44,290 nucleotides of DNA from Laspinema palackyanum D2a. GTDB lineage: Bacteria > Cyanobacteriota > Cyanobacteriia > Cyanobacteriales > Laspinemataceae. This document shows, one piece after another, positions 17,338 to 35,534 of the stretch (within the stretch, counting starts at the first letter, position 1; each line of letters opens with the position of its first letter). The translations under genes and the position numbers were made by a program. The stretch covers positions 1 to 44,290 of the forward strand of contig JAMXFF010000056.1 in NCBI GenBank assembly GCA_025370845.1. The letters are read 5' to 3'. Under the pieces are notes generated by a model that had not been told where the DNA came from, did not search any database, and was given only the letters and a program-made list of their open reading frames with translations.

Positions 17338-17799
17338 ATGTTAATGTTACTGTTTTATGTCGGGCCTGATCGGTATGCCCTAGGCTGTTCCCAGGTCGTA
17401 GAAGTCATTCCCCTGGTGGAATTGAGAAAACTATACCATGCCCCAGAATATATGGCGGGATTGTTTAATTACCGAGGGAGCATTGTTCCGGTTCTCGATC
17501 TCTGTCATTTGATTCGGGGGAGTTCCTCTCGCTCTTGCTTAAGCACTCGGATTATTCTGGTTAAGTATCAGCAAAACCACCAGAATGAGCAACTGATTGG
17601 ATTAATGGCCGAGCGAGTGACGGATACGGTGAATGTCCCGGACTCTCAATTTAAGGGAGAGGGGATTCACTTAGAAAATGCGGCCTATTTGGGCAAAATC
17701 ATCATGGACGAAAAAGGGACAATCCAGCAGTTGCGCCTGGAGGATTTACTTTCACAGCAAGCACAAGCATTCCTATTGCCTATTGGGGAGACTGAATAG
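17338..17799 (+). CDS. cheW: CheW-like coupling protein (WspB position)
   Basis: This 153-residue protein is a single CheW domain. It begins with LLFYVGPDRYALGCSQVVEV, followed by the conserved turn GLFNYRGSIVPVLDL (about 42-56) and IGLMAERVTDTVNV (about 86-99). It should link the receptor to the CheA kinase. It has no extra domains and matches the simple CheW (WspB) of Wsp systems. It is the first gene of a run that continues with CheR two bases after its stop (17799 to 17802). A promoter-like box and palindrome lie just upstream. Confidence 0.9.
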   Translation: MLMLLFYVGPDRYALGCSQVVEVIPLVELRKLYHAPEYMAGLFNYRGSIVPVLDLCHLIRGSSSRSCLSTRIILVKYQQNHQNEQLIGLMAERVTDTVNVPDSQFKGEGIHLENAAYLGKIIMDEKGTIQQLRLEDLLSQQAQAFLLPIGETE

Positions 17800-17801
17800 T
17801 C

Positions 17802-19124
17802 ATGGTTTGGGACGAAATTGAGCGAAAACTCAGCAAGACGAGCGGATTAGACCCCAAAACCCTAGGTTCCCAGGCGATCGTCAAGGCGGTTCGAGACCGG
17901 ATGCAGGTTTGTGGGGTGGAGAATGTGACCACCTATCTCGATGTATGGCTCTGTTCCCCCCAGGAATTACAGGCCCTAATTGAGGAGACCGTTGTGCCCG
18001 AAACCTGGTTTTTTCGGGAGCCTGAATCTTTTGAGTTTCTCCGGCGTTACGTTCTGTTCGAGTGGTTACCCCACCACCAAGAAGGTATTCTGCGCCTGCT
18101 CAGTGTTCCCTGCTCCACGGGAGAAGAACCTTATTCCCTCGCTATGATGCTCCTAGATGCAGGGTTACCTCCGAATAGGTTTGTGATTGACGCCGTTGAT
18201 ATCAGTCAAAAAGCCCAAGCTAAAGCCAAACAAGGTCTCTATCGAGAGCATTCATTTCGGAGTAAAAATTTAGGCTTTCGCCACCGCTATTTTGAGGAAA
18301 CTTCCCAGGGATATCAACTTTCACCGGCAGTTAAGGAGACCGTAAATTTTATCCACGGCAATCTTTTAGAGCCACTATTTTTATATGGGAAACCGCTTTA
18401 TGATATTATATTTTTTCGGAATTTATTAATTTATCTGGAACCCGTTGCTCGCGATCGCGCCTTGCAAGTGTTAAATCGTTTATTATCTCCCGCTGGAGTG
18501 CTGTTTGTTGGGTCTGCTGAAGCCGGACCCATGATTGAGCAGCGATTCATCTCCCTGCGCCATTCCATGACTTTTGCCTACCGCAAGCGACAAAAAAGGG
18601 ACGGAAGCGCTCGCTTCTGTGTCCCACCGGATGAGCCTGAATACTCTTCCTTCCAGGTTCCCCCACCAAATCCGCCGCGCTCTGACTCTCCTGGATTTCC
18701 ACCCCAATCCCCACCCCCTTCTTGGGCGGAACCCCCCCCAGAAGCCAGAAGAGAACATCCTCCAAGCTCACAGAGCGCCTCGAACACCCCTTCCTCACCC
18801 CAGCCAATCCCTGAGTCCCTTCTGATGCAGGCTAGACATCTAGCGGATCTCGGACAATTGTATGAAGCCGCCCAGCTATGCGAAACTTACCTCAGTCAAC
18901 ATCGCACCGATGCCAATGCCTACGTCTTATTAGGTGAAATCCGCCAAGGCGCAGGACAGTCGGAGCGTGCCGAACAATGTTGGGAAAAAGCCGTTTACCT
19001 CGAACCCTACCACTATGAAGCCTTGACACATCTGCTTTTGCTCAAAGAATCTCAAGGAGATCTCACCCATGCCAGTACCCTGAGACAGCGGATTCAAAGA
19101 CTCCTCAACTCTCAGGGGAAATAG
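17802..19124 (+). CDS. cheR: CheR methyltransferase with TPR tail (WspC-like)
   Basis: This 440-residue protein has a CheR domain at about 1-265: an N-terminal helical part, PETWFFREPESF (66-77), the SAM-binding motif SVPCSTGEEPYSLAM (101-115), IDAVDIS, and FFRNLLIYL at about 204-212. A Pro/Ser-rich linker (about 273-330, visible as CCC runs at 18650-18800) joins it to TPR-type repeats at about 338-435. It should methylate glutamates of the receptor encoded next. WspC of Pseudomonas has the same CheR plus TPR layout. It is translated right after the CheW gene, and 69 bases precede the MCP gene. Confidence 0.92.
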   Translation: MVWDEIERKLSKTSGLDPKTLGSQAIVKAVRDRMQVCGVENVTTYLDVWLCSPQELQALIEETVVPETWFFREPESFEFLRRYVLFEWLPHHQEGILRLLSVPCSTGEEPYSLAMMLLDAGLPPNRFVIDAVDISQKAQAKAKQGLYREHSFRSKNLGFRHRYFEETSQGYQLSPAVKETVNFIHGNLLEPLFLYGKPLYDIIFFRNLLIYLEPVARDRALQVLNRLLSPAGVLFVGSAEAGPMIEQRFISLRHSMTFAYRKRQKRDGSARFCVPPDEPEYSSFQVPPPNPPRSDSPGFPPQSPPPSWAEPPPEARREHPPSSQSASNTPSSPQPIPESLLMQARHLADLGQLYEAAQLCETYLSQHRTDANAYVLLGEIRQGAGQSERAEQCWEKAVYLEPYHYEALTHLLLLKESQGDLTHASTLRQRIQRLLNSQGK

Positions 19125-19193
19125 CACGCTCTCATTCCGGGGTAAAGATTAATAGACCCATCCAAACCCTTTCAACACCAAAGGAAAAACAGA

Positions 19194-20945
19194 ATGTTTC
19201 GGAATCTCTCTTTGCAAGCTCGAATGCTGGCGGCTTTTATATTTATGGGCTTAATTGTATTAATTGTAGCCCTAGTCGGTTGGGGGGGAAATCATCGGTT
19301 AAGTAATCGCCTCGACACCATTACAGGTAACTCCATGCCGAGTGCGATCGCCCTATGGAAAATCAAAGAAGGTCAAACCCAAATTCAATCGGCTGAACGA
19401 TTGCTCCTCAATCCCCGCAGTTCCACTGACCGTAGAACCGTTGCCAAAGACAGAATCAATCGAGCATGGCAACAAATTAATCAAGGATTTGCCGAATACA
19501 ACAATATTACGGGGAATAATGAGGAAGAAATTCGCCTTTATAATCAGTTTATGGAAGCTTGGAACCGCTGGAAGCAAATCCATGAAGAATTCCTGCAACT
19601 GAATCAAGAATTTGAATCTTACGGCATTTTGCAACCTTGGGAAACTCAGGTCAGTTTATGGGAGTCCGGTCAAGCCAATAGTCCCCAAATGGCTAGTGCC
19701 CGAAACGCTACTGAGATTTTAGAACAGATGAATGCCCAACGCGCTCGCACCAATATTCCCGCGTATCAAGCGGCAGAATCAACCCTACAAGAGGTCTTAC
19801 AATCCAATCAAAATATAGCTTCTCAAGTGGTCAGAGATGCTGAAAAAGATGTGGCCCAAAGTAGTTTTTGGGTGTTTCTCGGAATGCTCCTGGGTCCCTT
19901 GACTGCCATCATTTTTGGCTTGTATTTTAGTAACACGATCGCCAAACCCCTCGGGGCTAAAATTGTCGGGGTGGTTCGAGTCGCGGAAAAGATTTCCTCG
20001 GGAGACTTGACCACTCCGGTGAAGGTGACGGAAACTCAGGATGAAATTGGCCGATTAACGGTTGCTTTTGCTCAGATGACCCAAAAGCTAAATTCCTTAA
20101 TTCGTCAGGTCCAACATTCGGGAATTCAAATCACCAGTTCCACCACGGAAATTGCCGCATCGGGCAAACAATTAGAAGCGACGGTGACAGAACAAGTGGC
20201 TTCGACGAACCAAGTGGTCGCCACGGCTAAAGAAATTGCAGCCACCTCGGGCGAATTAGTAAAAACAATGGATCAAGTCGGGGAACTCGCCGGACAAACG
20301 GCGATTGCTGCGGGAACCGGCCAACAAGAAATTGTTCGCATGGAAACCACCATGCGCCAATTAGCTAATGCCACCGCTTCGATTTCGTCCAAATTGGGGG
20401 TGATTAGCGAAAAAGCGAATAACATTAATAGTGTGGTGACTACTATTACCAAAGTGGCGGATCAGACCAATTTGCTCTCTCTCAACGCGGCGATTGAAGC
20501 TGAAAAAGCGGGGGAATATGGCACAGGGTTTGCGGTGGTGGCCCGGGAAATTCGGCGACTGGCGGACCAAACGGCGATCGCCACGTTGGATATTGAAAGT
20601 ATGGTCAAAGATATGCAATCGGCTGTTTCCACTGGGGTGATGGAAATGGATAAATTCACCACAGAAGTCAGCCGAGGGGTTGAGGATGTTCGTACTATCA
20701 GCGGCCAAATTGGTAAGATTATTGAGCGGGTTCAAAGTCTGACTCCCCGATTTGATGCCGTGACTAAAGGCATGGAGGATCAATCGGAAGGGGCTCAACA
20801 AATTAGTGATGCAATGGTTCAACTGAGTGAAGCCTCCCGACAAACGGCCCAATCTCTGCGGGATACCAATCGAGCGATCGAGCAATTAAATGAAGCCGCT
20901 CAAGGATTACAACGAGAAATCTCGTTTTTCAAGGTGCAAATCTAA
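19194..20945 (+). CDS. Methyl-accepting chemotaxis protein (WspA-like)
   Basis: This 583-residue receptor has TM1 at about 9-30 (MLAAFIFMGLIVLIVALVGW), a periplasmic helical bundle of about 190 residues, TM2 at about 224-249, a HAMP domain (about 250-300) and a long signalling coiled coil. The hairpin tip reads VADQTNLLSLNAAIEAEKAG (about 421-440), then FAVVAREIRRLADQT, the region that contacts CheA and CheW. Four-helix-bundle sensors of this size are typical of WspA, which senses surface contact; what this one senses is unknown. It lies between the CheR and the Cys-motif CheW genes. In the classical operon the MCP comes first. Confidence 0.95.
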   Translation: MFRNLSLQARMLAAFIFMGLIVLIVALVGWGGNHRLSNRLDTITGNSMPSAIALWKIKEGQTQIQSAERLLLNPRSSTDRRTVAKDRINRAWQQINQGFAEYNNITGNNEEEIRLYNQFMEAWNRWKQIHEEFLQLNQEFESYGILQPWETQVSLWESGQANSPQMASARNATEILEQMNAQRARTNIPAYQAAESTLQEVLQSNQNIASQVVRDAEKDVAQSSFWVFLGMLLGPLTAIIFGLYFSNTIAKPLGAKIVGVVRVAEKISSGDLTTPVKVTETQDEIGRLTVAFAQMTQKLNSLIRQVQHSGIQITSSTTEIAASGKQLEATVTEQVASTNQVVATAKEIAATSGELVKTMDQVGELAGQTAIAAGTGQQEIVRMETTMRQLANATASISSKLGVISEKANNINSVVTTITKVADQTNLLSLNAAIEAEKAGEYGTGFAVVAREIRRLADQTAIATLDIESMVKDMQSAVSTGVMEMDKFTTEVSRGVEDVRTISGQIGKIIERVQSLTPRFDAVTKGMEDQSEGAQQISDAMVQLSEASRQTAQSLRDTNRAIEQLNEAAQGLQREISFFKVQI

Positions 20946-21279
20946 GGGGCGATCGGTTGTCGCTATTTCTGCTCCCCTCCCTGAGCAGAGTAGCGTTTTG
21001 AAGCCGAAGCCTAACTCTCACCCAGACAGAGGGTTGGGCGATGGAAACCCACAACCTGTCAAGTTTACCCAATCAGGTTGACAGCCTTTTTGTAACAACC
21101 CTAAACCCGGGGTAATTCTGATGATAAAAACCGGGTTTCTGGAGAAAATTGGGGCCAATTCTTAACAAAGAAAGGGCAATGAAACCCGGTTTCTCGTCCC
21201 TTAATCATCCCACTCCTTATGAGCGAGCATCTGGCTATCACTCCTGTGCAAAATTATCCCCATCATTAAGACTTGCTCT
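20946..21279. other. Spacer after the MCP gene, with repeats
   Basis: No gene is seen. AAACCGGGTTTCTGGAGAAA (near 21129) and GAAACCCGGTTTCT (near 21181) are inverted copies of one repeat family about 40 bases apart. A terminator-like hairpin at 21056-21091 precedes them. The next gene therefore probably has its own promoter or depends on read-through. Confidence 0.55.
21056..21091 (+). terminator. Possible terminator after the MCP gene
   Basis: CTGTCAA (21056-21062) pairs with TTGACAG (21078-21084), followed by CCTTTTT. The loop of 15 bases includes a second, alternative pairing (AACCTG with CAGGTT). Confidence 0.5.
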
Positions 21280-22002
21280 ATGTCTGAAAAGTGCTGGAAC
21301 CAAATCGGAATAGAGGGCGATCGCTCTTGTCCCGAACTCAATACAGTCATCCATTGCCGAAACTGCCCTGTTTATACCAGTGCCGGTCGCAGTTTATTGG
21401 AACGGGATGCCCCAGAAAACTACCGGGCTGAATGGACAGATTTACTCGCTCAAACCCCCACAACCCTAACGAGCGATCGCCAGACCCTTCCCCAACTACA
21501 ACGAGCGACAGCGGAATTCTTTGACCCACTTTCTCTGCTGATCTTTCGCCTAGGGGTAGAATGGTTAGCCCTGGCCGCCTCTACCTTCCAAGAAATCACT
21601 CAGCCTTGCACCATTCATACCTTACCCCACCGAACTAACGAAATTCTCCTGGGCTTAGTGAATATTCGAGGGGAACTTTTGCCCTGCATTTCTCTGAGAA
21701 ATCTCCTAGGGTTGGAACCTCCAGGCACTTATCCCAAACCGTTAAACGGTCCTGGGGATTTGACTCGGACGGTTTATTCCCGTATGGTCGTTGTGAATAT
21801 TCAAGGAGATATTTGGGTCTTTTCTGTAGATGAAATTGAGGGAATTCACCGATGCGATCGCCATTTGATTGAAGAAGTGCCTGCGGTGGTTTCCAAAGCC
21901 CCGATTACTTATACTCAATACATTGTAAACTGGCAAGACAAAAAAGTAAATTACCTTGATGAAGAATTGGTATTTTCTACCCTGAAACGGAGGATTTTGT
22001 GA
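21280..22002 (+). CDS. cheW: CheW-like protein with N-terminal cysteine motif (WspD-like)
   Basis: This 240-residue protein begins with a cysteine signature: C5, C17, C26, C29 (KCWNQIGIEGDRSCPEL, then HCRNCPVY). The same type of signature opens WspD of Pseudomonas, as I recall it. Four such cysteines could hold an iron-sulfur cluster or zinc. A CheW domain follows from about 85 to the end, with ILLGLVNIRGELLPCISLRN (about 125-144) and FSVDEIEGIHR. It should dock CheA to the receptor. Its stop codon overlaps the GTG start of the next gene by four bases, so translation is coupled to the kinase. Confidence 0.9.
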   Translation: MSEKCWNQIGIEGDRSCPELNTVIHCRNCPVYTSAGRSLLERDAPENYRAEWTDLLAQTPTTLTSDRQTLPQLQRATAEFFDPLSLLIFRLGVEWLALAASTFQEITQPCTIHTLPHRTNEILLGLVNIRGELLPCISLRNLLGLEPPGTYPKPLNGPGDLTRTVYSRMVVVNIQGDIWVFSVDEIEGIHRCDRHLIEEVPAVVSKAPITYTQYIVNWQDKKVNYLDEELVFSTLKRRIL

Positions 22003-24362
22003 AACACTCTGAACAAGATTTAAGTCAATTATCCATGCTCGATTTATTCGGAATGGAAGTTGAAACCCAATCTGCTCTATTAAATGAAAATTTATTAAGC
22101 CTAGAAAATCACAGTCAGTCCGGCCAAGAACTCGAAGCGTTAATGCGGGGTGCTCATTCGATTAAAGGGGCGGCCCGGATTGTTCAAATTGAGGAAGCGG
22201 TCCAGATTGCTCATCGCATGGAGGACTATTTTGTAGCTGCCAAGGAAGGTCAAATCACGGTTTCAGAAAACCATATTGATGTACTACTTTCCGCCGTGGA
22301 CCTCCTCTTGAGTATGAGCAAGGTGAGGGAACCGGAGTTAAAAGGCTGGATGCAGGACCACCAGCCGGAAATTGACCTGATCGGCAGCCAAATCCAGGAG
22401 ATTGCCTCCCCAGCTCCCCCAGCTCCCCCAGCTCCCCCAGCTCCCCCAGCTCCCCCAAAATCAGGCACTCCCGAGCCGGAACCCCCATCCCCACCGGAAC
22501 CGCAGGATCACCCCGTTGACCCCCCCCCTTCCCGGCTCCTGGTTCCTTTTCCAGACCCTGCGCCGCCTCCAACGGTGAGGGCGCAATCCCCTTCCGCCTC
22601 TAGTTCCAGTGGCGATCGCGTCGTCCGCTTAAGTGCAGACAACTTAAATCGATTAATGGGTCTAGCCGGGGAGTCCCTGATTGAAGCCAATTGGTTACAA
22701 CCCTTTGCGGATTCCCTACTTAAACTCAAAAAACACCAAACCGAATTATCAAAAATCTTAGAAAAATTAGAAAGTTCATTGAGCGACCCTCAAACGAGCC
22801 AATTAGCCAAAACTCACATAGAAATCGCTCAAGTTCATCAAAAAGAATGCTTACAAATTCTCACGAATCGCATCAACGAACTCGAACTTTTTTCCCGTCG
22901 GTTTGCTAACCTTTCCGACCGTCTCTATCGGGAAGTAATTGACAGTCACATGAGACCTTTTGCTGAAGGGATTGCGGCCTTTCCTCGCATGATGAGAGAC
23001 TTAGCTAAACAACTAGGGAAGTCCGTAAATTTTGAAATCATGGGCAAATCTACCAAGGTTGACCGCGATATTTTAGAGAAGCTAGAAGCTCCCCTGACTC
23101 AAATTTTGCGAAATGCGATCGCCCACGGGATAGAATCACCCCGGGAACGGATTGAGAAAGGAAAACCCCCGGAAGGAACTGTGCGCCTTGAAGCGATTCA
23201 TCGCGGTGGAATGCTGTTGATTACGATTTCTGATGATGGTCGAGGCATCAATTTAGCCGAGGTCCGGCAACAGGTGATTGCTAATCAATTGGTCAATCCT
23301 GAGTTTGCTCATCAGCTCACCGATACGGAACTGATGGAATTTTTATTTTTACCCAGCTTTTCCACGGTTACGGAGGTGACTGAAATTTCTGGACGCGGTG
23401 TGGGGTTAGATATTGCCAAGGGGATGATGCAAGAAGTCGGGGGGTTATTGCGTGCTCAGTCTGAACTGGGAAAAGGGACCCGTTTTCATCTGCAATTACC
23501 CTTAACCCTCTCGGTGATTCGCACCCTGTTAGTGGAAATTTCTGCCGAACCCTACGGGGTTCCTCTCGCCCGAATTGATCGGATTGTTCAGATTAAGCGG
23601 GGGGAACTCTTTGTTGTGGAAAACCGGCAATATTTTAGCCTTAATGGTCAAAATGTTAGTCTGGTGAGTGCTCATCAAGTTCTGGAATTAGAAAAGAGTG
23701 AACTGAATGAGGAGTTGTTATCGGTGATTGTGATGAGCGATCGCAGCAACTATTATGGCTTAGTGGTCGATCGCTTCCTGGGGGAGCGAGATTTGGTGGT
23801 CCGCCCCCTAGACTCCCGTCTGGGCAAGGTCCGAGATATTAGTGCGGCAGCATTAATGGAAGATGGCTCTCCCGTTTTAATTATTGATGTGGAAGATTTA
23901 GTGCGATCGCTGGATCTGCTTCTGAGTAGTGGCCGGTTAAGTCAAATTACCCAGGATACCCAAGTCAAAGAGTCCAAACATCATAAAAAAATTCTGGTGG
24001 TTGATGATTCGATTACGGTCCGAGAAATGGAGCGTAAATTGTTGCAAAATAAAGGCTATAAAGTCGAGGTTGCAGTCAATGGTATTGATGCGTGGAATGC
24101 CGTCAGAACTGGGGAATATGACCTAATTATTACCGATGTTGATATGCCTCGAATGAATGGCATTGAGCTGGTTAACCACCTGAAAAGCCATGCAAAATTG
24201 AAGTCTACTCCGGTGATTATTGTGTCCTACAAGGACCGGGAAGAAGACCGGCTTTTAGGGTTAGAAGCGGGGGCAAATTATTACTTGACAAAAAGTAGTT
24301 TTCATGATGATACCTTTTTAAATGCGGTCATGGATATGATCGGGATGGCGGATGAGAGTTGA
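21999..24362 (+). CDS. cheA: Hybrid CheA histidine kinase with receiver (WspE-like)
   Basis: This 787-residue kinase starts with GTG, overlapping the stop of the CheW gene (GTGA). Domains: HPt at about 1-115 with phospho-histidine H53 in AHSIKGAAR; a Pro-rich linker at about 135-215 containing an imperfect APP repeat; dimerisation and ATPase regions with LRNAIAHGIESPRE, ITISDDGRGINLAEV and ISGRGVGLDIAK; a CheW-like domain at about 500-640; and a receiver at about 665-785 with D713 in IITDVDMPRMNG. The receiver has S in the switch position (IIVSYKD) and K in YYLTK. This HPt-kinase-receiver plan is that of WspE. It should pass phosphate to the CheB homologue and the last gene's receiver. Confidence 0.95.
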   Translation: MKHSEQDLSQLSMLDLFGMEVETQSALLNENLLSLENHSQSGQELEALMRGAHSIKGAARIVQIEEAVQIAHRMEDYFVAAKEGQITVSENHIDVLLSAVDLLLSMSKVREPELKGWMQDHQPEIDLIGSQIQEIASPAPPAPPAPPAPPAPPKSGTPEPEPPSPPEPQDHPVDPPPSRLLVPFPDPAPPPTVRAQSPSASSSSGDRVVRLSADNLNRLMGLAGESLIEANWLQPFADSLLKLKKHQTELSKILEKLESSLSDPQTSQLAKTHIEIAQVHQKECLQILTNRINELELFSRRFANLSDRLYREVIDSHMRPFAEGIAAFPRMMRDLAKQLGKSVNFEIMGKSTKVDRDILEKLEAPLTQILRNAIAHGIESPRERIEKGKPPEGTVRLEAIHRGGMLLITISDDGRGINLAEVRQQVIANQLVNPEFAHQLTDTELMEFLFLPSFSTVTEVTEISGRGVGLDIAKGMMQEVGGLLRAQSELGKGTRFHLQLPLTLSVIRTLLVEISAEPYGVPLARIDRIVQIKRGELFVVENRQYFSLNGQNVSLVSAHQVLELEKSELNEELLSVIVMSDRSNYYGLVVDRFLGERDLVVRPLDSRLGKVRDISAAALMEDGSPVLIIDVEDLVRSLDLLLSSGRLSQITQDTQVKESKHHKKILVVDDSITVREMERKLLQNKGYKVEVAVNGIDAWNAVRTGEYDLIITDVDMPRMNGIELVNHLKSHAKLKSTPVIIVSYKDREEDRLLGLEAGANYYLTKSSFHDDTFLNAVMDMIGMADES

Positions 24363-24687
24363 GCCTGCCCAGATCGAGGCGATCGCTGGGATCATCGCAC
24401 CGGAGGACTTATCTGCAGCATTGCCGGAAAACCTCTTTCCTGTCGCCTAGACAGGGGGCTTTGGGCATGACTGTAGTACCACCATGCCAACATCTACCGG
24501 AGAAACTATCGGCAATTGAGTCACGCTTGTTGAGTCCGAGGTGAGCGGATTATTTTAAATTGACCCTAAAAATCAGGCTTAGAGTGAGTTATTTATTAAA
24601 AAAATAATTTAAGGAAAAAGAGGGGAATTTAGATATAATAGGAGAAATTTCAAGATTCGTTCATTACTATACCTTAAAATCTCTTAT
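24363..24687. other. Spacer between CheA and CheB genes
   Basis: These 325 bases have no convincing gene. The first half carries a small hairpin (CCTGTC and GACAGG near 24443-24459). The second half is strongly AT-rich and contains TATAAT (24634-24639) followed by AGGAG. The TATAAT could be a -10 box for the CheB gene, but no good -35 was found. Confidence 0.45.
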
Positions 24688-25698
24688 ATGAAAATTGCTA
24701 TTGTTAATGATATGCTGTTGGCAATAGAAGCCTTACGGCGCGTCTTAACATCAGTGCCGGATTATGAACTGCTTTGGGTGGCCCGGAATGGGGCGGAAGC
24801 CCTGGATAAATGTACCTCGGTGCGACCGGATCTCATTTTAATGGATGTCTTCATGCCGGTGATGGATGGGGTAGAGGCAACTCGCCAAATTATGGGTCGT
24901 TGTCCCTGTGCCATATTGCTGGTCACCTCTAGTATTAACACTCACTTACCTAAAGTATTTGAAGCCCTCGGATATGGCGCGCTAGATGTAGTGATTACGC
25001 CAATTCTGGGACACTACGGCAATGCGGAAGGGGGAGAAACCCTCCTGGAAAAAATTAGGACGGTTCATAAATTGCTGGGTAAACCCATCAGCAAAAAGCC
25101 CCCAAATCCGATTCCTGCCAAGTGGGGTTATACGACTCAACCCTATCCCCCCCTGGTGGCGATCGGCGCTTCTACGGGAGGTCCCACGGCGATCGCCAAG
25201 ATTTTGTCTAAGTTACCCCAGGATTTTAGAATAGCGGTGGCGATCGTCCAGCATATCGATGTCCAGTTTTCCGCCAGTTTTGTCCAGTGGTTATCCCAGC
25301 AAACCCGCTTGAAAATTGATTTGGCTCAAGAGGGAATGACCCCACAACCGGGTAAAATTATCGTCGCAGGAACCAACGATCATCTCCTCATGCGCCCCGA
25401 TCGCACCCTGGGCTATACTAAACATCCCCGGAGTAATCCCTATCGTCCCTCGGTGGATGTTTTTTTTACAAGTTTGGCTGAAAACTGGCCGGGGCAAGGA
25501 TTAGGGGTGCTGCTCACCGGCATGGGACGAGATGGAGCCGTAGGATTGAGTGTGTTGCGATCGGCAGGTTGGCAGACGATCGCCCAAGATGCCAGCAGTT
25601 GTATCGTCTATGGAATGCCCAAAGCTGCGGTCGAATTGGGAGCAGTACAAGAAAGTTTGAATCCCGAGGCGATCGGGGTAAAACTCCTGAGTCTCTAA
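24688..25698 (+). CDS. cheB: CheB methylesterase (WspF-like)
   Basis: This 336-residue response regulator has a receiver at 1-125 with D53 (LILMDVFMPVMDG) and an acidic pair reduced to N7-D8 in IVNDMLLAIEALRR. The same IVNDM opening is, from memory, typical of WspF. The catalytic domain at about 153-335 has the triad S162 (GASTGGP), H189 (VQHID) and D282 (GMGRDG). It should demethylate or deamidate the receptor when phosphorylated by the kinase. It stands at the WspF position in the cluster. No good ribosome site precedes the ATG at 24688. Loss of WspF in Pseudomonas locks the system on, so this gene is probably the brake. Confidence 0.95.
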   Translation: MKIAIVNDMLLAIEALRRVLTSVPDYELLWVARNGAEALDKCTSVRPDLILMDVFMPVMDGVEATRQIMGRCPCAILLVTSSINTHLPKVFEALGYGALDVVITPILGHYGNAEGGETLLEKIRTVHKLLGKPISKKPPNPIPAKWGYTTQPYPPLVAIGASTGGPTAIAKILSKLPQDFRIAVAIVQHIDVQFSASFVQWLSQQTRLKIDLAQEGMTPQPGKIIVAGTNDHLLMRPDRTLGYTKHPRSNPYRPSVDVFFTSLAENWPGQGLGVLLTGMGRDGAVGLSVLRSAGWQTIAQDASSCIVYGMPKAAVELGAVQESLNPEAIGVKLLSL

Positions 25699-26407
25699 TC
25701 ACTCATCCAGTTTCTGAAGTTAGGGTTTCGAGGTTTTCTAATTTTACGGTGATTTACCCTCGGGCCTGGGTACGGTTTTGCCATCTCCTCGACAAGAATC
25801 GGGGTTTCACTAGAAACCGCCAGTTATACCAAATCCGGCTATTTCCAGTGGGTTTTCTGTCTTAAACTCCCAGAGGAAAGACGTCCGGTTGAGAGTCTGA
25901 ACCCTTGAGGGGTGCTGAGGTTGGGCCAACCGACAAGTACCGGCGGGGCTCTGAGAAATGGGTAACATTTTGTACAGAAACCCGGTTCGTTTTCCCTGTA
26001 CTTTACCCCTGGATCAGATTGCTCAACAGGGGAATACAGGGAATGGACTGGAAACTTTTTCAGCTAAGCCCTGTCCACCGAATAAAAGTAACCTCTGGAC
26101 TCCATTGTATGATAAGTTTAAAAAATTCAGTAGTCATTGTTACTACTTTTCTCTCATCAGCGCAACATCTACAAAAACTGAACCCCTCTGTTCTCCAGTT
26201 CTCCAGATTGAGAGTTCAAAGGGAAACTGGCGTTGATATTTTTAAGCCTAAAGATAGATGACATAGGATAGGGGAGTATAAAAAATGAAAAGAGGGGGAA
26301 TAACAATAGAGTGCCTCTACGACTCCCGGGCGATCGTCCATTCCAGGAAAATTTAACCTAACCCCATTAATGGGTGAGCCATTTTAGTTTTTATTTTAGG
26401 AGCCTAA
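25699..26407. other. Long spacer before the REC-kinase gene
   Basis: These 709 bases carry no believable gene; the open frames here lack ribosome sites and family features. Copies of the CCGGTTTC-type repeat lie at about 25809-25830 and 25978. The last 120 bases are AT-richer and purine-rich. The gene start at 26408 has a good AGGAG site. I saw no clear promoter pair. Confidence 0.5.
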
Positions 26408-27964
26408 ATGCAATCAAGGGTCACGAGTGAGGAATTAATCAAAGTGAATCAGGCGATCGCTTTACGTTCCAACCCTAAATTTTCAGTCCGATTCCGGGAA
26501 ACAGCAATGAGTAGAGAACTTTCAGCCCAACCTGTATCTATTTTATTAATAGACGATCAGCCGATTGTCGGTGAAGCCATTAGGCGGATGCTGGCAACGG
26601 AAAAAGATATTAAATTTTGTTATTCTACCGACCCGGATCAAGCCATTCAACTCGCCACTCAAATTCAGCCCACGGTAATTTTACAGGATTTAGTGATGGG
26701 GGCGATTGATGGGTTGATGCTCCTGCGCTTCTTTAAAGCTAATCCAGGGACTCGCAATATTCCGATCGTGGTCCTCTCCACAAAGGAAGAACCCCAAAAA
26801 AAAGCCCAAGCCTTTGCTTCAGGGGCCAATGATTACTTAATTAAAATACCCGACAAAATTGAGCTAGTTGCTCGACTGCGTTACCACTCTAATGCTTATC
26901 ATAATTTATGCAAAGGTTATGAATTCGAGCGAACCCAACAGTACAATAAAGAGTTAGAATTGCGAGTCCAAGAGCGCACCCAAGAACTAACCGAAGCCCT
27001 AGATAATCTCAAACAAACCCAAGCGCAATTAGTTCAAAGTGAAAAAATGTCCGGTCTAGGGCAACTGGTGGCGGGAATTGCCCATGAAATCAACAACCCT
27101 ATCAGTTTTATTTCGGGGAATTTAATTCATTTTATTGAATATGCTGAAGGATTATTAACTTTAGTGGAAATGTATGAACAAGCATTTCCCGATCTACCGA
27201 TTACGATTCAAGATTTTAGGGAATCCCTAGACTTAGAATTTATTCGGGAAGACTTGCCTCGCTTAATCTCTTCCATCCGAGGAGGATCCGATCGCATTCG
27301 AGAAATTGTAGTAAATTTGCGTAACTTTTCACGCATGGATGAATCGGATCGAAAACCGGCAGATATCCATGAAGGGCTAGAAAGCACCCTGGTGATGCTA
27401 CAACATCGCCTGGAGGAGAATCAGATTGAACTCAGCAAGGAGTATGGAGAGTTACCGCCAATCGAGTGTTATCCCGGACAACTCAATCAGGTGTTTATCA
27501 ATATGTTGTCCAATGCGATCGATGCGGTAAGCGATCGCCAGCAACACTCTCCCCGAAAAGCCATTTCCGATAACGGGGAGACGGTTCCCGGGAAAATCAG
27601 CATTAAAACTGAACTTCAAAACGGGGTAGTGGTGATTCGGATTACAGATAATGGGATAGGAATTCCCCCCGCACTTCAAACCCAAATTTTTAACCCCTTT
27701 TTCACCACCAAGGAAGTCGGACAAGGAACGGGATTGGGATTGGCAATCAGCTATGAAATTATCGTCAAAAAACATCACGGACGAATTCGATGTGAGTCGC
27801 ACCCCAATCGCGGCACCGCATTTACCATTGAAATTCCCTTCGGGTCTAACCAACCGAGTAATATTCGCCAACTGCCCCTCAGTCACAAAGAAACTGCTGT
27901 CTCCTCAGTGTCTCAACCGCCTCCAACAGAAATCCCTTCGCTACAGTGGCTTGAAGTCGGTTAA
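26408..27964 (+). CDS. WspR-like receiver fused to a histidine kinase
   Basis: This 518-residue protein has a receiver at about 43-165 with D49/D50, phospho-acceptor D94 (VILQDLVMGAIDGL), T125 in VVLSTKEEP and K146. Segments such as ILQDLVM, LSTKEEPQKK, ASGANDYLIK and IELVARLRYHSNAY are, from memory, very close to WspR. A coiled linker (about 170-210) follows where WspR carries its GGDEF domain. Here there is a histidine kinase: H226 in AGIAHEINNPISF, NMLSNAIDAVSD, ITDNGIGIPPA and [12 protein letters not shown]. Thus it likely receives phosphate from the WspE-like kinase and controls its own kinase output. AGGAG lies before the ATG; another ATG at codon 34 is less likely. No diguanylate cyclase follows. 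The partner regulator is not in the window. Confidence 0.93.
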   Translation: MQSRVTSEELIKVNQAIALRSNPKFSVRFRETAMSRELSAQPVSILLIDDQPIVGEAIRRMLATEKDIKFCYSTDPDQAIQLATQIQPTVILQDLVMGAIDGLMLLRFFKANPGTRNIPIVVLSTKEEPQKKAQAFASGANDYLIKIPDKIELVARLRYHSNAYHNLCKGYEFERTQQYNKELELRVQERTQELTEALDNLKQTQAQLVQSEKMSGLGQLVAGIAHEINNPISFISGNLIHFIEYAEGLLTLVEMYEQAFPDLPITIQDFRESLDLEFIREDLPRLISSIRGGSDRIREIVVNLRNFSRMDESDRKPADIHEGLESTLVMLQHRLEENQIELSKEYGELPPIECYPGQLNQVFINMLSNAIDAVSDRQQHSPRKAISDNGETVPGKISIKTELQNGVVVIRITDNGIGIPPALQTQIFNPFFTTKEVGQGTGLGLAISYEIIVKKHHGRIRCESHPNRGTAFTIEIPFGSNQPSNIRQLPLSHKETAVSSVSQPPPTEIPSLQWLEVG

Positions 27965-28385
27965 TTTGACAAGGTGACGGTTCAGTTCAAACCCTAGGCC
28001 CCTAGCTCTATTCCCTCATCCAGTGACCTGCACCTCGGGTCCCCTGCCCTCGGTCTGGGGTGGGGTTCGCCTGGGATTGCAGGAGGGGGCCAGAACTGGC
28101 TCCCCTGTGATGGACTCAGGGGTTGGGTAAAAAATCGAGGGCTGATTAGAAGGGTCCCAGTGGGTTGAAGTCAACTAAATGAGAAGCGAGAGCTAAAATC
28201 TCAATAAAAAAACATCATATTTCATTAACTCTTAAGGCATGATGAAAATAGAAACTTTTATAGTAGCGTCCGTAACCCGTTCTTCAAGAGGCCGGGAAAT
28301 AGCTACTCCCTTGAGTTATTTTTCTTCCCCGGTCTAAAGAGCGGGGGATTTACAACTATTGCCATAGAGGACATGAGGTTTGCCC
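27965..28385. other. Spacer before ilvB
   Basis: These 421 bases show no gene. The left part is GC-rich with CCTAGGCCCCTAG. Around 28190-28270 the sequence turns AT-rich (AATAAAAAAACATCATATTTC). This stretch could contain the ilvB promoter, but I found no pair of boxes I would defend. No leader peptide with a run of branched-chain codons was seen. Confidence 0.45.
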
Positions 28386-30248
28386 ATGCTTTCAGAAAGC
28401 AGATCAGACAGAAAAACAAAACCCGTCGTGGTTCCCACTCGTAGAACCGGCGCTTATGCGTTGATGGATAGTCTCAAGCGTCACGGAGTCAAACATATTT
28501 TTGGCTATCCGGGTGGGGCGATTTTACCGATTTATGATGAACTGTATCGGTTTGAAGCCACAGGGGATGTCCAGCATATTTTAGTTCGCCATGAACAAGG
28601 AGCCTCTCATGCAGCCGATGGCTATGCCCGCGCCACAGGCAAGGTGGGGGTTTGCTTTGGGACATCCGGCCCGGGGGCAACTAATTTAGTCACGGGAATT
28701 GCCACCGCCCACATGGATTCGATTCCAATGGTGATTATTACCGGACAAGTGCCCCGGGCGGCGATCGGCACGGATGCCTTCCAGGAAACGGATATTTATG
28801 GAATTACCTTACCGATTGTCAAGCATTCTTATGTAGTGCGCGACCCTCGGGATATGGCGCGGATTATCGCCGAAGGGTTTCATATTGCCAGTACCGGCAG
28901 ACCCGGTCCGGTGTTGATTGATATCCCTAAAGATGTGGGGTTGGAAGAGTTTGACTATGTGCCGGTGGAACCGGGGAGTATTAAATTACCGGGATATCGA
29001 CCGACGGTGAAAGGGAATCCCCGACAAATTAATCAGGCGATCGAGTTAATTCGCCAAGCCAAAAAACCCTTACTGTATGTCGGGGGTGGGGCGATCGCCG
29101 CCAGTGCTCATAACGAAATTAAAGAACTCGCCGAACATTTTCAGATTCCAGTGACAACCACCCTAATGGGCATTGGAGCCTTTGAGGAACATCATCCTTT
29201 GTCCTTGGGAATGTTAGGAATGCATGGCACCGCCTACGCAAATTTTGCCGTAAGTGAATGCGATTTGCTGATTGCCGTCGGTGCTCGTTTTGACGATCGC
29301 GTGACAGGCAAGCTGGATGAGTTTGCCGCCCGCGCTAAAGTCATTCATATCGATATTGACCCCGCAGAGGTGGGGAAAAACCGGGGACCGGAAGTTCCCA
29401 TCGTGGGTGACGTACACCAAGTGCTCACGGATCTGTTGCGTCGCCTGCGGGAAACCGGGGATATTGCCGATGCCAATCAAACCAAAGAATGGTTAGGACG
29501 AATTGAGCGCTGGCGGGAAGATTATCCCTTGCTGGTGCCTCATCCCGAAACCGCCCTCTCTCCCCAAGAGGTAATCGTAGAAGTGGGACGGCAAGCACCA
29601 GATGCCTACTACACCACCGATGTGGGACAGCATCAAATGTGGGCGGCCCAGTTCCTGAAAAATGGCCCCCGTCGATGGATTTCCAGCGCCGGATTAGGGA
29701 CAATGGGGTTTGGAGTCCCAGCGGCGATGGGTTCCCAAGTGGCGCTACCGGATGAACAAACCATCTGTATCAGTGGCGATGCCAGCTTCCAGATGAACCT
29801 CCAAGAACTGGGAACGATCGCCCAGTATGGCATTAAAGTCAAAATTGTCATTATCAATAATGGCTGGCAAGGGATGGTCCGTCAGTGGCAAGAAACCTTC
29901 TATGGGGAACGCTACTCCTCGTCCAACATGGAGATTGGGATGCCGGATATTCCCTTACTCTGTCAGGCGTATGGGATGAAAGGCAAGGTGGTATCAACCC
30001 GGGACGAACTCCAGGATGCGATCGCTGAAATGCTGGCTCATGATGGACCCTTTGTCCTCGATGTCCAGGTCACCCGCAACGAAAACTGCTACCCAATGGT
30101 AGCCCCGGGTAAGAGTAATGCTCAAATGATAGGTTTACCCGAACTCAAGCAAAAAGACTTACAGGTTGAGTTAGTTTATTGCAGCAATTGTGGGGCAAAA
30201 AATGCCTCGACAAATCACTTCTGCCCTGAATGCGGGACGAAGCTGTAG
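28386..30248 (+). CDS. ilvB: Acetolactate synthase large subunit with zinc-ribbon tail
   Basis: From the ATG at 28386 (GAGG seven bases upstream) the protein has 620 residues; a TTG at 28380 is less likely. It joins two pyruvates, or pyruvate and 2-ketobutyrate, with thiamine diphosphate in branched-chain amino acid synthesis. Seen: [16 protein letters not shown], the glutamate of [28 protein letters not shown], and the ThDP motif [14 protein letters not shown] ending in [12 protein letters not shown]. The first residues of that motif are GDA rather than the usual GDG. Residues after about 590 form CSNCGA and CPECG pairs, a zinc-ribbon-like tail not found in enzymes such as E. coli IlvB. The regulatory subunit (ilvN/ilvH) is not adjacent. 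Confidence 0.95.
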
Positions 30249-32390: not shown

Positions 32391-35300
32391 CTAGGGATCA
32401 ACCACTTCACAGGGAAGAATCACGGTAAAACGGGACCCGCACAGGGGTTGACTTTCTACGGAGATTTCCCCCCCCATCATTTGACAGAAGTGTTGACTAA
32501 TGGCGAGTCCCAATCCGGTGCCCCCATACTCCCGCGTGGTTGAGGCATCCCCTTGCATGAAGGGTTTGAACAGATGCTGCCGTTGTTCGGGGGTAATGCC
32601 GATGCCGGTATCGGCGATCGCAAACTGAATCCAAGAAGAGGGGGTCCCGTGAGCGGCAGAGCCCATTGCCCCGTTTGTGGGACAAAATAAGAGAACCGAG
32701 AGGGTAATCTCACCATTTTTAGTAAATTTGGCGGCATTGCTGAGAAGATTCAGCAGAATTTGACGGACTTTCGTCAAGTCAGCATACATCATCCCCAAAT
32801 TGCGATCGCACTCCACCCCCAGGGTATTCTCATTTCGTTCCACCAAAGGTTGAGCCGTACTCACCACATTTTCAATCAACTCATTGATATTAAAATCCTC
32901 CAAATACAAATCCATTTTTCCGGCTTCGATTTTGGAGATATCCAGAATATCGTTAATTAACACGAGCAGATGATTTCCTGACTTGCGAATTTTCTCCAAA
33001 TCGGGAACCAAATCCGTATAGCCAACATCATCGGCTTCTTCTTGAAGCATTTCGCTATAACCGATAATCGCATTCAGGGGCGTTCGCAATTCATGGCTCA
33101 TATTAGCCAGGAACATACTCTTAGAGCGATTGGCCGTTTCCGCAGCGTAGGCAGCCTCTTGGAGGGCGAGTTGTGCTTGCTTGCGATCGCTGATATCCAT
33201 CACAGTGCCAATGCTTCTAACCGCTTGTCCCGTGGCAAAATCGCGAATCACTTCCCCTTGAGCGCTCAACCAGCGCAATTCCCCGGTTTCCAGGCGAATG
33301 CGTTGTTCGATTTCAAACCGTTCTGAAGTAGAGGAGAGAATTTCAGCGATCGCCTCCTCAACCCGTTTTCTATCCTCCGGGTCAATGGCTTCCAAATAGG
33401 TCTCATACTTCCCATCAAATGAACCCGGAACGAAACCATAAAGCGCTTCCATCTCAGCCGAACCTGTTAGTTTATGATTGAGAATATCCCAATCCCAGGT
33501 TCCCATTCGCGCCGCAATTAAGCATTGCCGAAGTTGGTCTTTGCTGGCTTTTAAGGCAATTTGAACCTGTTCCCGATGGGCCACCTCAACTTGCAGGCGA
33601 TCGTTCGCTTCTTTTAAAAACGCCGTCCGTTCCTCCACCCGTTGTTCTAATTCATCTTTGGACTGTTGCAGTGCAGTCTCGGCATTCTTGCGTTCCGTAA
33701 TATCCCGACTAATCCCAATCATCCCCACAATTTCCCCATTCGGGTCAAAAAAGGGAGTTTGAATGGTTTCGAGCCAGGTTTTGCTCCCATCAAACTGCTC
33801 CAGTTGCTCCTCCATTCGCAAGAGTTGACCTTCGTCCAAAATACGCCGGTCAATTTCAGCACAAATTTTCGCCGTCTCTGAGGGAAACAGTTGCTCATCA
33901 GTTTTGCCAATAATCTCGCTTTCCTCTCGGGAGGCAAAGCGCTGAAACGCTTTATTTACCCGTTGATATACCCTTTGTTTATCTTTATAAAAAATTAAAT
34001 CGGGAATCGAATCGATTAGAGACCGCAGTAAAGCCCGTTCTTGTCGCAGTGCTTGTTCCGTTTGCTTGAGTTCGGTGATATCAATTCCCACACAAACCGC
34101 TGATTTTCCGTGATTGTATTTTTCGACCCCCACCAAATATTGCCGGAGAATTCCTTCAATGTCTAAGCCAATTTCTGCGGTAGTTTTATGGAGAGAACTT
34201 TCAAAGAATTGCTGTAAAAAGTTGGGAAATTCTTTGCGAGTTTGGAGAAATCCTACTGGGTGATTGACAAACTCGGCAGGCGATCGCCCGAACAAATTCG
34301 CCAGATAGCGATTCACCCCGAGGTAGCGTAAATCTGATGCAATCCAAGAGACACATCCGGGGACGGTATCTAACACCGCTTGGAGGCGATCGAGGGCTTT
34401 TTCTAAGTTGACTCTCGCTTGAGCGCGATCGCTGGCTTCTAACCCCAAGGCGACACAATCAGCTAGGGATGCGGCAAAGTTTTCCTCTTCTATCCGCCAT
34501 TGGCGAGCGGACCCAATATGTTCCAGACAGATCACCCCCACCATTTGTCCCCCCACCCGAATCGGTGCATCTAACATGGAGGTAATCCCCAAGGGAATCA
34601 GATAACCCTCGGTAAATTCCCGGGTTGTGGGGTCTTCCTGAGCCTGATCGGCGGCCAAGATCCGTTCCTGTTCGATGGTTTGAAAATACACCGGATAGTC
34701 AATGGCGGTGAGTTCGAGTCCGGCCGAATGTTTCTGGGGGGAGCGTTCGTAAAGTTCGATACAGTGAATCGCCCTGCGGTCTTCCGTATATAACCAGATA
34801 CTAGCCCGTTCCACTCCCAGGGTCTGGGTCACCGCTTCAGTGATTTGTTCCAGGGAAGCTTGTAAATCTCCCTGGTTGAGGCTGGGACTTTTCGCCAACT
34901 CTCCGAGGACCCGACTATATTGACGCAGGCGATTCTCCCGTCGCCGCAAGGAGGCTTCAGCGCGTTTTTGTTCGGTGATATTGCTAAAGGTACAGAGGAC
35001 CTGTTCGACTCTGCCATTGGAGGCGATTTGCGGATTGGCATTAACCAGCAACCATTGATCGCAATCGAGTTCCCCATTACAGGAGAGGAAGGAGTCCGGG
35101 ATGCCACGGGGATTGGGGGTGAGAAGAGACTGAGCCCCGATGCCGATGATCCCTTGAGTGGGGGATTGGGTGGCGATCGCCTCCATGATGGGACATTTTC
35201 CTGGCGCAAAGGGGGTGCAGTCTTCTTGCAACAGATGAGGATTGTCACAGAACAAGGGCCTGCCCATGACTGCCGCTTCATCCAAACTCAGCAGGGTCAA

Positions 35301-35534
35301 GGCAACAGGATTGGTGACGAGGACCTCGCCTTCAGGTCCCGTCAACACGACCCCAACATCCATCTGGGCGATCAGATTCAGGAACTGGGGTTCAAAGGAC
35401 CCCGGGCTGTCCTGGCTTGGGTTGGGGGGCTGGTGGAATTGGCGAGCGATCGCCACAGAGAGTCCGGGAATCACTCGCCTAATTCCGATGCCAATGCCGA
35501 TGCCTATGGTGAGCGAAATCGCAACCCAAATCAT
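32391..35534 (-). CDS. Multi-PAS/GAF sensor histidine kinase
   Basis: This 1047-residue kinase has an N-terminal membrane segment (about 2-20) containing the repeat IGIGIGIGI. Domains in order: a PAS (about 50-195, [19 protein letters not shown]), a GAF (about 210-370), a second PAS (about 385-500, [20 protein letters not shown]), a third PAS (about 505-620, [18 protein letters not shown]), a coiled stretch, a fourth PAS (about 670-790, ITGSAEME-type [13 protein letters not shown]), HisKA with H814 in [13 protein letters not shown], and an ATPase domain with [24 protein letters not shown] and [12 protein letters not shown]. No receiver is attached, so it needs a separate partner. AGGAG precedes the ATG. 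The signals sensed by PAS and GAF are not evident. Confidence 0.93.

Follow-up and report, generated by a model that had tools for sequence, protein, structure and literature searches.

The Wsp chemosensory system is the textbook surface-to-cyclic-di-GMP pathway, and a Wsp-type cluster whose regulator carries no diguanylate cyclase raises the question of what such a system drives instead, and how tightly its core is tied to any one output. Such a cluster lies at positions 17338-27964 of a 44,290-nucleotide stretch of the cyanobacterium Laspinema palackyanum D2a (assembly GCA_025370845.1, contig JAMXFF010000056.1, positions 1 to 44,290, forward strand), called the window below. The cluster is a complete Wsp-type one: a reading-frame check found its seven genes all open, and two CheW genes, a CheR-TPR gene, an MCP gene, a hybrid CheA gene and a CheB gene stand within it. 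An earlier note on this DNA had proposed that all gene types of the wsp operon are present and that the last protein joins a WspR-like receiver with D94 to a HisKA/ATPase unit with H226 in place of GGDEF, and Pfam, together with NCBIfam for CheB, confirms these domains. Our reading, to which we give a probability of about 65%, is that the window encodes a Wsp-type system in which a WspR-type receiver joined to a histidine kinase (REC-HK) replaces the diguanylate cyclase and signals would pass from CheA through D94 to H226.

The receiver, at about residues 42-168, belongs to the WspR lineage. A phmmer search against 177,635 distinct PDB sequences placed two WspR structures at the top (3bre, 164 bits; 3i5a, 157 bits), and the next matches to the receiver part were 8avv at 58 bits and PleD at 56 bits. 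When the genome's own receivers were scored with a WspR-type profile (A1) built from 21 such receivers, three of the 134 reached 208-225 bits and the fourth 74 bits. In a careful tree, 110 WspR-type receivers formed one clade against the 18 best-matching generic receivers of this genome (support 100/97, recovered in 100% of 200 bootstrap trees), and a quick tree with 18 CheA/CheB receivers as outgroup gave the split again (support 91). Judged by sequence, the likeness to WspR is not chance. The PDB matches, the own-genome scores and the tree rule out a generic receiver, and the claim of the earlier note that this receiver is specifically WspR-like stands.

Behind the receiver, a helical linker leads to HisKA and HATPase domains at residues 218-478; Pfam found no GGDEF domain in the protein and no second receiver. 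D94 and H226 are invariant in all 13 aligned proteins of this class, the window's included, as are the residues of the H, N, G1, F and G2 boxes (the N-box, DNGxG and GTG among them). The kinase module is a common, off-the-shelf module of this lineage, because it has 45 further matches in its own genome at 45-57% identity (E <=1e-40). Searched by phmmer against 23 WspR-receiver proteins with kinase outputs, it listed 18 at E <=10, of which 13 belong to its own class and five, two cyanobacterial and three verrucomicrobial hybrid kinases, match weakly (28-43 bits). The WspH-like proteins L160 and L161 (G, L and C numbers are our labels for genomes, loci and contigs) and three of the six verrucomicrobial hybrids, one of which ends at a contig end, were not listed at that threshold; because the HATPase fold is common to all these kinases, a non-match of this kind speaks of subfamily only. 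The WspH-like kinases in turn match the hybrid kind weakly (29-37 bits). At least two distinct kinase modules, and probably three, were thus recruited to WspR-type receivers. Inheritance of the window's fusion from Burkholderia WspH is unsupported, the kinase modules being not detectably alike.

An AlphaFold2 model places residues 150-259 in a single helix running from alpha-5 of the receiver through the linker into the DHp helix. Among the 13 proteins, 54 residues separate the receiver from H226 in eight, 65 in two, 64 in two and 39 in one, and the lengths 54 and 65 differ by 11, as in coiled coils. Together, helix and linkers would weakly fit signalling along a coiled coil.

The REC-HK gene is kept with the cluster in close relatives: it follows the whole cluster in all four same-genus genomes fetched (G355, G357, G359 and G360). 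Of the two outcomes that the earlier note named as refuting its reading, a merely generic receiver and a gene that relatives do not keep with the cluster, neither was borne out. The closest relative with a name is Laspinema sp. D2d (L050), whose receiver is 91% identical. A wider census covered 292 cyanobacterial genomes, this one among them, and detected the receiver in 18 (E <=1e-20) and the CheW with an N-terminal four-cysteine motif (Cys-CheW) in 23 (E <=1e-10), with all 18 contained in the 23; the census scored at most 14 candidates per genome, so that receivers in genomes without Cys-CheW could be missed, and full rescoring covered the five discordant Cys-CheW genomes and the relatives. 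In the window the motif, C-x11-C-x8-C-x2-C, lies in the second CheW; of 80 distinct Cys-CheW proteins, 75 have it exactly and four in a looser form. It looks like a metal site and would be a good marker of Wsp clusters. The consensus over these proteins reads CW..IG...GD..C..L....HC.NC. Across 107 annotated loci with 111 receiver genes, 83 of these genes stand directly after cheB and four directly before it; the other 24 stand elsewhere, or their stretch holds no cheB.

The enzyme attached to this receiver differs among lineages. Among 80 loci, the best of at least 555 (one genome per species, a selection that favours receivers like the window's), the output is GGDEF in 29, PP2C/SpoIIE in 29, histidine kinase in 12 and class III nucleotide cyclase in 10. 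The GGDEF loci comprise 26 from Pseudomonadota and one each from Myxococcota, Thermodesulfobacteriota and cyanobacteria; the PP2C/SpoIIE loci nine from Planctomycetota, four from cyanobacteria and 16 across other or unnamed groups; the kinase loci six each from cyanobacteria and Verrucomicrobiota; and five of the class III cyclase loci are cyanobacterial. Outside Pseudomonadota the outputs are mostly other than GGDEF, and cyclic-di-GMP is therefore one choice among several. Counted over 110 distinct receivers, after removal of identical receiver-plus-label pairs, the outputs are GGDEF in 35, PP2C in 34, kinase in 23 and cyclase in 18, the labels being assigned by phmmer against seed domains and checked with Pfam for 15 output proteins (nine, five and the window's). 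At least one of CheA, CheB and Cys-CheW is present at 70 of the 80 loci, all three at 60, and all three with CheR and MCP at 49, and none of CheA, CheB, Cys-CheW and CheR at 10, where it should be borne in mind that some of the 80 stretches end at contig ends.

These exchanges can be followed on the CheA tree. With 84 loci on the tree, it takes 11 changes to explain the four outputs, where the least possible is 3 and shuffled labels give a mean of 42.9; the remaining 23 of the 107 loci lie outside this tree, 22 having no CheA with receiver in the stretch and one (L105) having it on the other strand. The root is unknown, and we do not claim GGDEF as ancestral. The 29 cyanobacterial Wsp CheAs group together in a quick tree (SH-aLRT 93) and hold all four outputs. 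Within them the data reject a single clade of the 12 cyclase loci (p-AU 2.9e-5) and likewise one of the three PP2C loci (p-AU 3.4e-4), the groups being the output labels and the quick tree having been inspected before the test; both the cyclase and the PP2C output therefore require at least two changes on this tree. Receiver and CheA distances are correlated (Spearman 0.60 over 84 loci, 0.71 over the 29 cyanobacterial ones), with 0 of 999 permutations as high. Moreover, at all 29 cyanobacterial loci the nearest cyanobacterial receiver with another output is closer than the nearest receiver with the same output outside cyanobacteria, a comparison for which the cyclase class had only one non-cyanobacterial locus. 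Taken together, the correlation and the nearest-receiver comparison indicate that receiver and CheA remained together while the attached enzyme was replaced. Across several phyla the WspR-type receiver acts as a conserved adaptor whose outputs can be exchanged, which is the new finding of this work. Some loci carry two receiver proteins: L080 has a cyclase and a PP2C type in tandem, and L082 and L115 have GGDEF in the operon and a divergent PP2C type.

The Laspinema genome itself holds three WspR-type receivers. The other two genes lie convergent on contig C22 and encode, by Pfam, a second REC-HK and a REC-PAS-HisKA-HATPase-REC-Hpt protein. No che gene was found in 30 kb around this pair, and none of the genome's 16 CheW matches is on C22. 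A search with the window CheA found itself at 1716 bits and the next CheA at 315 bits (32% identity), and no other Wsp-type CheA was found in this genome. Three WspR-type receivers are present in seven of eight genomes of the genus, this one included, and two in the eighth, which is 92% complete. A single CheA probably serves all three receivers, which may amount to a branched output. As for a partner downstream of the kinase, a REC-LuxR gene stands 0.3-1.9 kb downstream of REC-HK, in convergent orientation, at four of the 13 cyanobacterial kinase-output loci in the CheA set (L037:7968-8645, L041:6415-7092, L106:9299-9976 and L113:11614-12291; domains by Pfam in the first two, by receiver match and equal length in the others), and contig C38 of this genome carries a 79% match. 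REC-LuxR is a candidate target of REC-HK that is too thin to claim.

We infer from this arrangement the phosphotransfer steps, their sign, their branching and their target. A membrane receptor array would control the hybrid CheA, and phosphorylated CheA would act on CheB for adaptation, on its own receiver and on D94 of REC-HK. Phosphorylation of D94 would be relayed along helix 150-259 to the DHp helix bearing H226, shifting the balance between kinase and phosphatase, and REC-HK would then phosphorylate or dephosphorylate a response regulator encoded elsewhere. The same CheA would also serve the unlinked second REC-HK and the REC-PAS-HK-REC-Hpt protein, and the WspR-type receiver would be the constant adaptor to the Wsp CheA, with the attached part exchanged by lineages. 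No response-regulator gene adjoins REC-HK, with cheB before it and ilvB after it, and a further phosphorelay to an unlinked regulator, as the earlier note proposed, is plausible.

The same architecture could work with the opposite sign, the kinase being active by default and switched off by phosphorylated CheA through D94, which we regard as possible though unlikely. The model for this is CheA3-CheS3-CheY3 of Rhodospirillum centenum, which resembles the proposed cascade in that a CheA acts, as shown biochemically, on the receiver of a separate kinase and so on a regulator; on phenotypes and transfer assays, phosphorylation of the first receiver of CheS3 by CheA3 is proposed to be inhibitory, turning off transfer from CheS3 to CheY3 (PMC3868531). 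In addition, a switch between kinase and phosphatase is possible, because H226-E227 and N230 of the window protein occupy the positions on which these activities depend in CrdS, kinase activity on the acidic residue and phosphatase activity on the Asn. Against an inhibitory sign, CheS3 is built differently, as a REC-REC-PAS-HWE kinase with a second receiver and a PAS domain that is unlike the window REC-HK, and phosphorylation activates WspR, the relative of the window receiver. It is improbable that the kinase half serves chiefly as a partner or a sink, with H226 trading phosphate with its own D94 or with CheA's receiver and the C22 receivers as the real outputs; the single Wsp-type CheA and the three receivers, recurrent in the genus, would suit such a division, whereas the cluster-borne REC-HK is conserved with its catalytic boxes intact in all 13 proteins, and the CheS3 kinase showed no transfer to its own receiver. 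That a generic REC-HK gene merely happens to stand beside a chemosensory cluster, as the abundance of the kinase module in the genome and the 709-bp gap before the gene might suggest, is hardly credible given the score of its receiver, far above the next in the genome, and its place after cheB in the same-genus genomes and at most annotated loci.

Several observations weigh against the main reading of a Wsp-type system with a WspR-type receiver on a kinase as its output. The 709-bp gap after cheB means that co-transcription of REC-HK with the cluster is not shown. A same-family genome (G361) has REC-HK and no che gene in its 20 kb; a same-order genome (G364) has a cyclase-type receiver protein and no Wsp core in the 12 kb fetched; and five of the 23 Cys-CheW genomes have no WspR-type receiver in a full scan, their best scores being 73-83 bits. 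Receiver and core can therefore part. The receiver tree has few alignment columns relative to its rows. The AlphaFold2 model is a monomer built from 13 sequences and of moderate quality (mean pLDDT 71.7, pTM 0.40), with pLDDT falling to its lowest in the helix, 52, at residues 211-220 and being 60 in the H226 stretch (221-230), and linkers of 39 residues (one of 13) and 64 (two of 13, the window's among them) misfit an 11-residue step from 54. Finally, a single clade of kinase outputs among the cyanobacterial CheAs (13 loci) is not rejected (p-AU 0.31), and the window's kind of fusion may therefore have arisen once.

The five receiver-less genomes differ among themselves. In G118 the Wsp cluster runs into a contig end, and in G278 cheA is split and the other cluster genes are short. 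G255, G262 and G193 have a cluster type in common, and the stretches fetched, which in G262 reach only 2.9 kb past cheB, contain no receiver. Another genome, G131, has the same type plus a further cluster, and encodes a PP2C-type receiver protein on yet another, third contig. Two clusters look decayed, L141 with a transposase-like gene between cheA and cheB and a split cheB, and L143 with a split cheA and short receptor and CheW genes; no WspR-type receiver was found in the genomes of either. At L144:4366-6536, two genes behind cheB, in the place of the regulator, match the ligand-binding domain of neurotransmitter-gated channels, weakly and under the cut-off (24.3 and 15.9 bits).

Features of the Wsp-type cluster in the window (columns: feature, positions, strand, evidence)
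CheW, WspB-like	17338..17799	+	Pfam CheW, 81.5 bits
CheR with C-terminal TPR, WspC-like	17802..19124	+	Pfam CheR, 135 bits; TPR models 20-23 bits, under cut-off
Chemoreceptor, 4HB-HAMP-MCPsignal, WspA-like	19194..20945	+	Pfam
CheW with N-terminal four-Cys motif CWNQIGIEGDRSCPELNTVIHCRNC, WspD-like	21280..22002	+	Pfam CheW, 70 bits
CheA, Hpt-kinase-CheW-receiver, WspE-like	21999..24362	+	Pfam; H-kinase_dim under cut-off
CheB, receiver-methylesterase, WspF-like	24688..25698	+	Pfam receiver-CheB_methylest; NCBIfam PRK12555, 437 bits (cut-off 342)
Gap from cheB to REC-HK, 709 bp	25699..26407	+	One open reading frame without Pfam match
REC-HK output protein, 518 aa	26408..27964	+	Pfam receiver-HisKA-HATPase

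The names WspA to WspF are applied by analogy. The CheB begins MKIAIVNDM. With its CheR-TPR (the TPR models falling under the cut-off) and multidomain regulator, the cluster has the features of the ACF class, which is said to have been defined by Wuichet and Zhulin in 2010. A promoter and terminator scan of the gap gave two promoter-like sites against 1.0 expected, a weak one lying at 26258-26286, and no terminator-like site against 1.0 expected. Compared with L050, only 26236-26299 of the gap aligns (75%), edges apart. An ilvB-like gene (a thiamine pyrophosphate enzyme) adjoins both REC-HK genes of the genome, at 28380-30248 in the window and at L035:3088-4920 on contig C22; the two copies are 73% identical, and the window copy has a C-terminal zinc ribbon. 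From their letters, we take these genes to encode acetolactate synthase. The paired REC-HK and ilvB-like genes are perhaps an old duplication, with gene order differing between the copies. On the reverse strand, 4.4 kb past the REC-HK gene, a large GAF-PAS-PAS-HisKA-HATPase sensor kinase is encoded at 32394-35534, and a gene resembling it also lies near the L050 cluster.

The interpretation in the earlier note thus survives in part. Its Wsp-type cluster, specific receiver, kinase output and conservation of the gene with the cluster are upheld, and nothing in this analysis supports its surface or contact signal as input. It also lacked the published precedents, namely WspH/WspHRR, the Phormidesmis priestleyi cyclase and the kinase regulators, about 40%, of CheR-TPR clusters. 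A kinase in the place of GGDEF is already known from Burkholderia WspH, and a cyclase at that position is known in one cyanobacterium. The REC-HK gene is a cyanobacterial counterpart of WspH; of greater interest is the pattern, a widespread Wsp core whose output can be exchanged. In its general form, to which we give slightly better than even odds, Wsp would be an output-agnostic module. A single lineage of receivers, suited to the Wsp CheA and staying matched with it, would have been joined in different lineages to a diguanylate cyclase, to class III cyclases, to PP2C phosphatases and to kinase modules of at least two and probably three kinds, with some genomes running parallel outputs from one CheA. 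If so, one chemosensory array would feed several outputs at once that differ in their chemistry. As natural chimeras, these loci could be used to study how one receiver governs unrelated enzymes by way of a helical linker, and how specificity between CheA and receiver persists as outputs change. Our search of the open-licence literature turned up no study tracing the WspR-type receiver as a single lineage whose outputs were exchanged.

The distribution of Wsp clusters is also wider than described. A 2021 study that searched by synteny and at least 30% identity confines Wsp to beta- and gammaproteobacteria and states that H and R systems occur together in no identified genome (PMC8552884). The first statement is contradicted by the Wsp clusters found in cyanobacteria, planctomycetes, verrucomicrobia, deltaproteobacteria, elusimicrobia and alphaproteobacteria, among them a cluster with Pseudomonas gene order and a GGDEF regulator on plasmid pMLb of Mesorhizobium japonicum (L156; typed conjugative). 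Novosphingobium (L157) has a cluster similar to L156, and WspR-type receivers match in 20 plasmid records in all. The second statement is contradicted for Burkholderia stagnalis, which has WspH-type and WspR-type clusters on one replicon (L154 and L166). A B. arboris replicon (L155, L167) has an H cluster and a GGDEF-type regulator with cheB, the remaining R cluster not being found.

Among known systems, CheR-TPR clusters have multidomain regulators with kinase, GGDEF, phosphatase or cyclase domains, about 40% of them with a kinase module (PMC3447774, 2012). The ACF class resembles the window in its CheR-TPR and multidomain regulator; that paper counts output domains and, in the parts available, does not treat one receiver lineage with exchanged outputs. 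In cyanobacteria, the Wsp cassette of P. priestleyi BC1401 has a class 3 adenylate cyclase in the place of WspR, and a Wsp system is named in L. boryana and Geitlerinema (PMC4971617, 2016). P. priestleyi and the window share the cyanobacterial order wspB, C, A, D, E, F followed by a non-GGDEF protein, and differ in that this protein is a cyclase in the former and a kinase in the latter; that study looked for WspR among GGDEF proteins elsewhere in the genome. In Burkholderia, the Wsp regulator WspH/WspHRR has a kinase replacing the cyclase, and genetic evidence implicates a DNA-binding partner regulator, RowR, acting after it (PMC8552884; PMC4324302). In both WspH and the window, a WspR-type receiver on a kinase thus belongs to a Wsp cluster and another regulator is proposed to follow it, and the WspH-like proteins L160 and L161, unlike the window's, have a short linker and stand at the 5′ end of their cluster. 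With the Pseudomonas system (WspA-F and WspR), the window shares the gene set, the four-Cys CheW and the WspR-type receiver. The two differ in gene order, which is CheW-CheR-MCP-CheW-CheA-CheB-output in the window and MCP-CheW-CheR-CheW-CheA-CheB-WspR in the Pseudomonas loci fetched, and in output, which is HisKA/HATPase in the window and GGDEF in Pseudomonas.

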